From: Paraeggerthella hongkongensis
Lineage (GTDB): Bacteria > Actinomycetota > Coriobacteriia > Coriobacteriales > Eggerthellaceae
Reading direction: 5' to 3'
DNA: 64,000 nucleotides
NCBI RefSeq assembly: GCF_003340345.1
Contig: NZ_PPTQ01000003.1
Span: 124,001 to 188,000, forward strand
The position numbers and the translations under genes are program-made. Below, piece after piece: positions 39,264-64,000 of this stretch; the stretch's first letter is position 1; the number at the start of each line of letters is the position of its first letter. Below the pieces are notes generated by a model. The model ran no database searches. It saw only the letters and a list, made by a program, of their open reading frames with translations, and was not told where the DNA came from.

Positions 39264-39432
39264 GCGTTTTTGAGGTTCGAAGAGCTCCTTTCGCACGTTT
39301 CCCTTGGCTTCTCTACGAACTTCCGACGAATACGCAACAAGTGCCAATCGCTTGACTGAGAGCGGGCATCGCGCGTGGCTTTGTGCCATGGTGAAGGGGC
39401 CGGCCGTTCTCCGAACGGAAAGGAGACCAGTT

Positions 39433-40035
39433 GTGGTGATGTACGGGTATGCAAGAGTTTCCAGCAAGGATCAGAATTTGGATAGGCAACTTGACGCGTT
39501 GGCGGAGTTCTCCGTTCCCATCGCCAACGTGTATACCGATCGCATGAGCGGCAAGAACTTCGATCGGCCTGGTTATCAGGCTTTGACGGGCGTTCTTGCG
39601 CCGGGCGATACGCTGGTGATCAAGAGCATCGATCGCCTGGGTCGAAACTATGACGAGATCATCGAGCAATGGCGATTTTTGACCAAGCAGCTGAACGTGG
39701 ACGTTGTGGTGATGGACATGCCGCTGCTCGATACGCGAACGAGCGAGCGAAACGTCACGGGCACGTTTATCGCGGACATCGTTTTGCAGATCCTTTCGTA
39801 CGTGGCGCAAGTCGAACGCGAGAATATCAGGCAGCGCCAAGCGGAAGGGATAGCGTCGGCTCGCGCTCGCGGCGTGCGCTTCGGCAGGCCGCCGAAGCAA
39901 CTGCCCTGCGATTTCGGGTACGTGTACTCGATGTGGAGGGAGGGCGCGATTGGAAGCAAAGAGGCGGCGAGTCGGCTCGGAGTTGCTCGGAGCACGTTTT
40001 TCAAATGGACGCGCGAGTACGATGCCACGCGGTGA
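39433..40035 (+). CDS. Serine recombinase (resolvase/invertase family)
   Basis: A 200-residue small serine recombinase. The N-terminal catalytic domain has YGYARVSSKDQNLDRQ (active-site serine in the RVSS motif), TDRMSGKNFDRPG, SIDRLGRNYDEI and VERENIRQRQAEGI; the C-terminus is an HTH (GSKEAASRLGVARSTFFKW). Size and order match Hin/Tn3-resolvase types. GTG 39433 is chosen because AAAGGAGA lies seven bases upstream. It stands alone, with no transposase beside it; a role in inversion or resolution elsewhere is inferred. Confidence 0.9.
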   Translation: MVMYGYARVSSKDQNLDRQLDALAEFSVPIANVYTDRMSGKNFDRPGYQALTGVLAPGDTLVIKSIDRLGRNYDEIIEQWRFLTKQLNVDVVVMDMPLLDTRTSERNVTGTFIADIVLQILSYVAQVERENIRQRQAEGIASARARGVRFGRPPKQLPCDFGYVYSMWREGAIGSKEAASRLGVARSTFFKWTREYDATR

Positions 40036-46752: not shown

Positions 46753-46844
46753 TGGCCCCTTGCGCTCGCGATGTTGCGTCCCGCGCATGGCTGGCCCTGC
46801 ACATGGCGGGCTCTTGCGCGCGGTTGGCCCCTTGCGCTCGCGAT
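46753..46844. repeat. Direct repeat pair in a gene-poor region
   Basis: TGGCCCCTTGCGCTCGCGAT occurs at 46753-46772 and again at 46825-46844; TTGCGCTCGCG occurs a third time just before, around 46740-46750. The 46705-47431 stretch holds no convincing gene; base composition is uneven and several short frames are open by chance. Confidence 0.6.
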
Positions 46845-47431
46845 TCCGGCGTTCTTGGCAGGTTTTGACGGTTTGAGGTCGTCCGAGACGCCCCTTCCCG
46901 AACACGCGAAAAATCGAGCTACGTTTCCCCAGGTGAAATGCCATCTCCGATGAGAACAACATGCAAAGCGACATCAAGAGCCCGTCGCTACGACATCAAA
47001 CCGCAAGAAACTGCCATGCAAAGCGGTTTTTCGCGCGCAACCCCTTGTCTGCAGGGGCACGAGCAGGGTGTCGGGCCTGTGGGCGCGTGGCGCCAATGCG
47101 GCGATCGTCGGCGATGCGCGGAAGGCGGCCGGAGCGTGACGGCCCTCGTTGATGGCGCAGCGTCGTTGACGCGGTTCGTCCGATAGGGGACTGCCGGGTT
47201 GAAGCTTTCGGCGAGGCTGCCCGCTTGCGGCGTTCCTTGCACGGCCTGATTCGTCTCGCGTTCGCGCGATGCAGTGCGGCCGCGACGTTCGCGTTCGACC
47301 GCAGGTTGCGGCAGCTGCGCCTGGGCAGCGGGATGAACCGCATGTTGGCGGATGCGGCGTCCTGGCGGGTTGTTCGCGCGCATTTTGCATGAAAAGACGC
47401 GATCAGGGGTTTGTTTTCCCTCGTTTGCCAG

Positions 47432-62111: not shown

Positions 62112-63440
62112 ATGGGCTTTTCTCTGGAAACGAGCATTCCTGCTTTGGCGGTGTTCGTACAAGGACTTCTGAGTTTCTTCTCTCCCTGCGTGCTGCCGCT
62201 GATTCCGCTGTACGTGGGCTACCTTGCCGGCGGCGCAGGCAAGGTGGGCGAGGACGGGCTTGTCGAGTATCCCCGCAAAAAAGTGTTCGTGAACACGCTG
62301 TTCTTCGTTGTTGGCGTGAGTTTCGCGTTTTTCTTGCTGGGCTTTGGGTTTACGGCGCTCGGGCAGTTCTTCACGGGCAACCAGCGCATGTTCTCGATGG
62401 TTGCAGGCATCATCATGGTGGTGTTCGGCCTGTACATGCTGGGCGCATTCGGCAAAACGCGCCTGATCGAATCCGAGCGTCGTTTGCCGTTCAATCTGAG
62501 TTCGTTCGCCATGAATCCCCTGGTCGCTTTGGTGCTGGGCTTTACGTTCAGCTTCGCGTGGACGCCTTGCGTGGGTCCGGTGCTGGCAAGCGTTTTGCTT
62601 ATGGCGTCGTCAAGCGCGTCGGCGGCGTGGGGCTATGCGCTGGTGGGCGTGTACACCCTGGGCTTCGTGCTGCCGTTTTTGGTGGTGGGCTTGTTCACTG
62701 GCGAGGTGCTGCGCTTTTTCCGGACGCACGGAAACGTGGTCAAATACACGGTGAAGGTGGGAGGAGCGCTGCTCATCGTCATGGGCTTGATGACGGTGAC
62801 GGGATGGATGAACGGCGTGACCAGCTACCTGTCTTCGTTCGGCGCCGCCCCCGCTGCGCAGGAGCAGTCGGTTGACGGCGCGGACGATGCGGGCAAGGCG
62901 AACTCGGACAAGCAGTCCTCGTCGTCCGCCTCGTCGTCCGACGGGAATGCTTCGGGGAAGAATTCGTCGGATCAAGCCATCGTGGCCCCGATGGCCGATA
63001 TTGTTTTGACGGATCAAAACGGGGTGGAGCGCAGGCTGTCCGATTATCGGGGCAAAACCGTGTTCCTGAACTTCTTCGCCACGTGGTGCGGCCCCTGCCA
63101 GCGTGAGATTCCCGATATTGAGGCGCTGTATAAATCGCGCGGCGAAAACCAGGATGATCTGGTGGTGCTGGCGGTGGCGAATCCTAAAACCGCCGACGAT
63201 CCGAAGAACAGCGATGTGTCCGAGGCCGAAGTGAAGTCGTTCATCAAGGAGCGGGGGATCACGTATCCGGTGCTGATGGATACGAAAAGCCAGCTGTTCA
63301 GGGCTTACGGCATTCGATCGTTCCCAACAACGTTCATGATCGACAAGGACGGCAACGTGTTCGGATACGTCACCGGCATGCTTACTCCCGACGTCATGAA
63401 CAGCATCGTCGAGCAAACGATGACCGGCGTGCGGAAGTAG
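62112..63440 (+). CDS. CcdA-TlpA fusion: transmembrane thiol transporter with thioredoxin domain
   Basis: A 442-residue fusion. Residues 1-235 are a six-helix CcdA/DsbD-type domain with the reactive cysteines in FSPCVLPLIPLYVG and SFAWTPCVGPVLAS. A Ser/Asp/Gly-rich linker follows (about 243-295). Residues 298-440 form an exported thioredoxin domain with FFATWCGPCQREIP (near 321) and the cis-proline region SFPTTFMIDKDG. Together they carry reducing power across the membrane to exported cysteines or cytochromes. Confidence 0.95.
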   Translation: MGFSLETSIPALAVFVQGLLSFFSPCVLPLIPLYVGYLAGGAGKVGEDGLVEYPRKKVFVNTLFFVVGVSFAFFLLGFGFTALGQFFTGNQRMFSMVAGIIMVVFGLYMLGAFGKTRLIESERRLPFNLSSFAMNPLVALVLGFTFSFAWTPCVGPVLASVLLMASSSASAAWGYALVGVYTLGFVLPFLVVGLFTGEVLRFFRTHGNVVKYTVKVGGALLIVMGLMTVTGWMNGVTSYLSSFGAAPAAQEQSVDGADDAGKANSDKQSSSSASSSDGNASGKNSSDQAIVAPMADIVLTDQNGVERRLSDYRGKTVFLNFFATWCGPCQREIPDIEALYKSRGENQDDLVVLAVANPKTADDPKNSDVSEAEVKSFIKERGITYPVLMDTKSQLFRAYGIRSFPTTFMIDKDGNVFGYVTGMLTPDVMNSIVEQTMTGVRK

Positions 63441-63459: not shown

Positions 63460-63492
63460 ACCGCTCGCCCCGGTCGGGGCGAGCGGTTTTTT
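63460..63492 (+). terminator. Intrinsic terminator after the CcdA-TlpA gene
   Basis: ACCGCTCGCCCC-GGTC-GGGGCGAGCGGT, a perfect 12-bp stem, followed by a run of T. Confidence 0.97.
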
Positions 63493-63731
63493 CAGGATGC
63501 ATGTCCGGTGCTTCGAGTCGCGCGCGGGCGCGGCTCGCGCGGTCGTTCAGTGTTTTGCGTTGTTTGGAATGACCGTCGATGCCAATGCTGGCGAACGGCG
63601 CGTGGGTTCCTTTGTGCTTGTGGTGGGACGCTGTTTTTATTGGCGAGCGCAATGTCGTCTAGTCGCGATTTGCATGAGGGGGCTCTGCCGATTTCCGCCA
63701 GTTCATCTTCTAGCGCGAAGGCGACCCTCGC

Positions 63732-63893
63732 TGCACGATTCTTTCCCCAATGTTGCGTACGGTTGCCTGTTGTTCCGCCTTCCTGAAAGCCGTGCTCTTC
63801 CGACCTGGGCAAACGAAGCAATGTGCTTAAAGGGAAGGACTTGGAAGGGGGTCTATGGTTCAGGAAACGCAACATTGGGGAAAGAATCGTGCA
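63732..63893. repeat. Perfect 27-bp inverted repeats flanking 108 bp
   Basis: The left arm (63732-63758, starting TGCACGATTC) and right arm (63867-63893, ending GAATCGTGCA) are exact reverse complements over 27 bases. A second, 8-bp inverted pair (TTCCTGAA at 63780-63787, TTCAGGAA at 63859-63866) lies inside. No T-run or target duplication is seen. The stretch 63493-64000 has no gene I can support. Confidence 0.9.
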
Positions 63894-64000
63894 AGATGCC
63901 GGGTTTTTGATACGTTGTGAGTCGGGATGCGCTCCTGCGTAGACTGCAGATGCGCATGCGAAACGCCCACCGAGATGGATGGGCGCTTCGTGCTGGAAGG

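Follow-up and report, generated by a model that had tools for sequence, protein, structure and literature searches.

The 162-bp palindromic element close to the end of the window (the whole stretch of 64,000 nucleotides that was analysed, contig C23:124001-188000 of the host genome, a Paraeggerthella draft of 2.86 Mb in 53 contigs) is a solo member of a dispersed family of palindromic elements resembling REPINs and MITEs. That such a dispersed family exists, and that its parts are spaced in helical register, is well supported. As to what the family does, the reading to which we would give about half of our belief is that the arms would be bound by protein dimers and held, together with a conserved core, in a looped complex, while a protein whose gene is bracketed by such elements would spread or maintain its own class of arms.

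The original prediction had described a perfect 27-bp inverted repeat around a 108-bp segment, with arms matching far beyond chance and no obvious promoter between them, and this description was borne out. Positions 63732–63758 and 63867–63893 are complementary at 27 of 27 bases across a spacer of 108 nt, an arm of this kind arose 0 times in 100 dinucleotide-preserving shuffles, and the stretch 63600–64000 holds neither a sigma-70-type promoter-like site nor a terminator-like site, the copy having no terminator-like tail. At up to three mismatches, the only arm sites within the window are the two belonging to this copy. Its 27th arm pair is peculiar to it, the family arm being 26 bp long, and the copy is one helical turn longer than the common 151-bp form (Table 1). 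The neighbouring genes converge on the element: the CcdA/thioredoxin-like gene on the plus strand stops 291 bp before it, and the next gene, just past the window end, lies on the minus strand. At the corresponding locus P. hongkongensis (G076) carries a module of approximately 3 kb without the element, consisting of FAD-reductase-like, small cytochrome-like and TetR-like genes (named by eye). The window copy probably has no gene-specific role. Just 3' of the CcdA/thioredoxin-like gene there is also a perfect 13-bp GC-rich hairpin followed by T's (63460–63487), an ordinary terminator candidate.

Table 1. Parts of the window copy, its neighbour gene and the second family element, in window positions.
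Feature	Position	Strand	Basis or remark
Left arm, 26 bp (27 in the window copy, to 63758)	63732..63757	+	Pairing statistics; imperfect dyad GCAnnATT-N8-AATnnTGC by eye
Left linker, 42 bp, sequence unconserved, length in helical register	63758..63799	.	Core begins 68 bp from the arm start
Asymmetric core, family consensus GCGACCTGGGGAAACGC	63800..63816	+	Alignment of copies
Right linker, 51 bp	63817..63867	.	Right arm's outer end lies 77 bp past the core
Right arm, 26 bp (27 in the window copy, from 63867)	63868..63893	-	Pairing statistics
Neighbour gene, CcdA-like membrane part fused to thioredoxin-like part	62112..63440	+	Named by eye; outside the element
Second family element, class 2 (arms GGCAGGTTTTGACGGTTTGAGG), one arm decayed	46835..47037 (about)	-	Outer limits from family alignment

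Using the 226-bp region as a query, more arm pairs were found on other contigs of the host genome, and a 19-base arm pattern matched at 17 sites compared with 0 control sites. A covariance model (R1) was built from 25 aligned copies and identified 16 distinct loci in the host genome (32 rows, both strands matching), so that the search for further copies of the repeat in the genome, proposed with the original prediction, proved positive. As far as a simple ORF pick shows, all 16 host copies are intergenic. At least 19 copies are present in P. hongkongensis (G076), with further copies in Gordonibacter and Eggerthella; among named records, copies occur in those of Paraeggerthella hongkongensis DSM 16106 and of Gordonibacter. 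When 138 genomes of the bacterial family were scanned with model R1 at E ≤ 1e-4, 27 genomes representing 14 of 48 genera gave a match. Since only Paraeggerthella and Gordonibacter copies went into the model, the true number is at least this high. From a set of 31 genome-contig stretches, 14 were dropped as chance matches, having little similarity beyond the 9-mers searched for, and the other 17 belonged to Paraeggerthella or Gordonibacter. In viral contigs, three matches to the class-1 pattern were obtained, which may be chance, and none to the class-2 arm described below. The elements have terminal inverted repeats, are short, occur in several copies and lack coding capacity, as MITEs do, and they form inverted repeat doublets in many extragenic copies (16 in the host genome), as REPINs do. 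The suggestion that the repeat is a transposase-free mini mobile element with terminal repeats therefore stands as far as a dispersed non-coding family is concerned, movement itself being unobserved. No description of repeats of this type in Eggerthellaceae was found among open-licence PMC papers.

The anatomy of the family was derived from 77 copies in ten genomes (16 from the host, 19 from G076 and 42 from eight others). Weaker model matches, most of them in further genomes but a few within these ten, were left out. In the family an asymmetric core stands between two inverted arms of 26 bp, both of them imperfect dyads, and the rest of the interior is unconserved. Watson-Crick pairing between the arms, for which 76 of the 77 copies were usable, is 0.61–1.00 at positions 0–25, 0.42 at position 26 and approximately 0.3 outside. 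The core is retained despite quite different arms in G052 and in G055 (L142), and further arm types with the same core were found in other genera (L147 of G052, L070, L074, L080–L082 and L085). In G052, arm type TAGGCAATTTTTGCGTTTTGCGTACG flanks hydrogenase-maturation-like genes on both sides (named by eye).

From the start of the left arm to the start of the core the distance is 57–58, 67–69 or 79 bp, and the right arm's outer end lies 65–67, 74–77 or 87 bp past the end of the core, with two odd copies, their core scored on the other strand, at 78/56 and 100/66. One turn of B-DNA takes 10.5 bp, and the best period was 10.5 bp for the first distance (R = 0.97) and 10.4 bp for the second (R = 0.95), as computed on 72 of the 77 copies, leaving out five low-scoring cores. 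When each combination of genus and spacing was counted once (29 in all), R for a period of 10.5 bp came to 0.96 and 0.91, respectively; p-values for the phasing overstate independence because the copies share descent. The linkers vary in sequence while the arm-core distances step by 10.5 bp. Model bias is possible in this phasing, model R1 holding columns for two spacings. A second class of elements, found by comparing flanks without the model, falls on the same spacing lattice, with 20 of 23 copies at 100 and 87 bp (computed offsets plus the 22-bp outer part).

This second class has different arms, with the same core in the same phasing, and is present in approximately 40 copies in the host genome and few in G076. 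At up to three mismatches its arms were found at 41 forward and 39 reverse sites in the host, compared with 3 of each in P. hongkongensis (G076), and at up to two mismatches the other 136 family genomes yielded one site. The class-2 copy in the window has its core on the minus strand at approximately 46921–46937; a simple core-plus-arms scan of the window returned the given element only and missed this decayed copy. It has a small gene of the plus strand on one side and an aspartyl-tRNA synthetase-like gene on the other (named by eye). There are seven loci with a class-1 element in G076 and none in the host, at least six of which carry a class-2 element in the host (..GGCAGGTTTTGACGGTTTGAGGTCG..), L127 being the locus left out of that count. 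When 14 class-2 host loci were queried, 13 could be located in P. hongkongensis (G076). Class 2 was clearly absent there at four loci (L195, L197, L205, L218) and apparently common to both genomes at three (L204, L211, L212). At the loci where it is absent the host has approximately 385–600 bp extra and not just about 204 bp, so that the insertion is not clean. Every empty site seen was imprecise, and no duplication of a target site was noticed. Short local tandem repeats of unrelated units were present in 9 of 42 class-2 flanks of approximately 300 bp (L177, L178, L183, L197, L204 and L214 among them); the corresponding figures were 1 in 39 for distal segments (p = 0.015) and 2 in 213 for tiles of the window. 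This excess is only a hint of fragility at the elements because the controls are mostly coding.

A candidate partner for the elements is a protein family of approximately 324–346 aa, found at eight loci. An element lies 7–131 bp past the 3' end of its gene at seven of these, and at five there are elements on either side of the gene. In four genomes (the host, P. hongkongensis, E. lenta and G085, the second element of the last being read by eye) the second element is located approximately 150–154 bp before the start of the gene. Two class-2 elements enclose a paralogue on host contig C15 that is about one-third identical, and the relatives in G055 and G062 are each followed by a single element, at 25 and 41 bp respectively, whose arms are of a third type (TGGCCGGATNCGACGG). 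The eighth homologue (L176, P. hongkongensis) has no recognisable element alongside. The link between partner and element is good as judged from element-centred loci, the partner having been seen only in DNA fetched for its elements or their flanks, which is not an unbiased genome-wide test. No homologue was found within the window at E 1e-4, nor were relatives found in viral contigs.

Assignment of the partner as a nuclease-like protein is weak and is made from sequence. Residues E189, D234, E245, H252, D261 and R264 are invariant in all eight aligned partners and may form a PD-(D/E)xK site, for which a conserved catalytic D and E in a Vsr/DUF559-like fold would be expected. MTES_1575 matches all eight partners (best 1.3e-4) and DUF559 matches six (E about 1e-3), in both cases weakly and below cut-off, and the sole PDB match was 3hrl, an endonuclease-like protein (E 0.29). 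PADLOC gave no match for the partner, and its AlphaFold model (two sequences) was unusable with a pLDDT of 35. Nothing was found in open-licence PMC papers on DUF559 or MTES_1575 in connection with repeats or transposons.

In the looped-complex reading, the arms would be the dimer-binding sites of the bracketed protein and the core would be a third contact, with the three sites all facing the same side of the duplex. Either the protein itself or a complex including it would spread or maintain its own arm class at intergenic sites, and it is by this nuclease-like protein that the elements would be mobilised. Rare inversion and homogenisation of the arms would be by-products of a long inverted repeat, arising for example from template switching at replication forks. 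It is also possible, and we put this more tentatively, that the whole represents a within-genome repeat system, in which a domesticated PD-(D/E)xK-type nuclease is bracketed by, and spreads, class-specific and helically locked palindromes, new arm classes with new paralogues replacing older ones at the same sites.

Alternatively, the elements could be ordinary MITEs, that is, internally deleted insertion sequences moved by a conventional transposase recognising the terminal repeats. Their length of approximately 150–204 bp, terminal inverted repeats, intergenic spread and lineage-specific class-2 burst would fit such an origin, as would their occasional inversion, since the Correia elements of Neisseria, at 204 bp similar in size, are reported to invert in a review of bacterial MITEs (PMC10969869). 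However, no arm pair was seen around a conventional transposase in the copies read, and neither a target-site duplication nor a matching transposase was seen. A parent insertion sequence with the same ends was likewise not found in the loci read; across the host genome the class-1 arms occur as close pairs, and some of the unpaired class-2 arms were checked. A conserved asymmetric core and a helically quantised interior would moreover be unexpected in a deleted insertion sequence, and here the core is kept while the arms change from class to class. On balance we regard this origin as unlikely, although a serious contender.

Equally concerned with protein binding is the proposal that the elements are architectural or regulatory sites, at which a looping repressor or a chromosome-organising protein binds arms and core and the copies are kept by selection. 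The helical phasing and the dyad arms agree with it, as do some positions common to Paraeggerthella and E. lenta, but no common neighbour or gene orientation is apparent at the 16 host loci (ORFs and names judged by eye), and both copy number and arm class shift fast between two sister species, which makes it a rather improbable account.

Invertons have inverted arms of 20–30 bp around 100–200 bp, and the window copy, with perfect, dyad-like arms around a segment of similar size, resembles such a DNA switch flipped by a site-specific recombinase. The original prediction had considered an invertible switch and had proposed comparing its orientation in related strains; as a function this was not borne out. 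Between the host and G076 there are 12 orthologous copies, of which 11 have the same orientation and one is inverted, and orientation is kept in three Gordonibacter pairs and one Eggerthella pair. One of 16 pairs is therefore inverted, where a fast switch would be expected to give about half (binomial p = 0.0005), the count leaving out pairs without clear similarity in either orientation. In the inverted pair (host C1:162527 and G076 C2:241090) the interior identity is 0.87 inverted compared with 0.47–0.49 direct, while in the L096 pair it is 0.80 direct compared with 0.49 inverted. Inversion therefore occurs, on an evolutionary time scale, while the other 15 pairs retain their orientation. 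The placing of both ends and the centre on one helical face, and the bracketing of a nuclease-like gene by other copies, speak for a system of mobile repeats and not for an on/off switch. The promoterless window copy with its convergent neighbours, the sharing of arms among many copies, and the position of the worst-matched part in the middle of the arm, whereas crossover regions should match, also make an inverton very unlikely. A serine recombinase of resolvase/invertase type (by eye) is encoded in the window at 39304–40035, 24 kb off, with no link to the element seen.

The two arms of a copy are coupled in sequence. Within-copy arm identity exceeded between-copy identity (same genus) in Paraeggerthella (35 copies; 0.83 vs 0.78), Gordonibacter (17; 0.91 vs 0.75) and Eggerthella (22; 0.83 vs 0.59), and over the whole arm 0 of 1000 shuffles reached this coupling in each of the three genera. 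The variable block of class 2 shows a within-copy arm excess too (0 of 2000 shuffles). In the Paraeggerthella arm, exceptionally, the inner nine bases hardly vary and lack this coupling, in part because the search used them as its motif. The coupling would be accounted for by repair or template switching from one arm to the other, or by a requirement that the arms be equal.

Paired (compensatory) changes in the arms, together with a very stable hairpin on either strand (z about -6), could also indicate a structured RNA, namely an sRNA, a terminator or an attenuator. Against this, mispaired arm cells on the core strand comprise 75 G-U and 111 A-C, no Rfam family reaches its gathering score, a terminator-like tail is absent, and helical quantisation is seen in linkers that are unpaired; we accord a structured RNA only a slender probability. 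The A-C cells, which are G-U on the opposite strand, are only moderately commoner, so that the other strand has at most a moderate wobble excess. Absence of a G-U strand bias points to protein-bound double-stranded DNA as the probable, though putative, functional form. Two Rfam candidates, GlmZ and ar7, were rejected with scores far under their gathering thresholds.

REPINs consist of REP sequences in inverted doublets, lie outside genes and are tied to RAYT genes (PMC3116915). Movement of such elements by a RAYT (Y1 tyrosine transposase) would share the layout seen here of an inverted doublet, solo copies and a partner gene flanked by copies, but the bracketed gene is DUF559/MTES_1575-like and not a Y1 transposase, and Y1_Tnp (PF01797) is absent from the host genome (0 matches from 2 scored candidates, at a completeness of 99.89%), which leaves this explanation with next to no probability. 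Y1_Tnp is present in 71 of the 138 family genomes. The likeness to REPIN/RAYT systems as they are described in PMC3116915 extends to intergenic short-repeat doublets in tens of copies, several classes per genome and copies near a partner gene. In contrast, the present elements have a partner of another, nuclease-like family, flank no Y1 transposase gene, and have arms of 26–48 bp, an asymmetric conserved core and spacing steps of 10.5 bp.

Among known systems, it is REPIN/RAYT in which a single-copy, host-like gene maintains a population of palindromic repeats. If the looped-complex reading were true, a second, unrelated enzyme family would be doing likewise, and evolution would have arrived at the arrangement repeatedly. 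Because of the helical quantisation the mechanism lends itself to simple tests, and genetic tools are reported for Eggerthella lenta (PMC9734109). At one site in G076 (L173, approximately 1402–1501, contig C25) a long perfect palindrome that differs from the family, possibly of a separate repeat type, is found where the host has the class-1 element of contig C3. In gut bacteria common in humans, the elements are thus also markers of intergenic sites that change fast.
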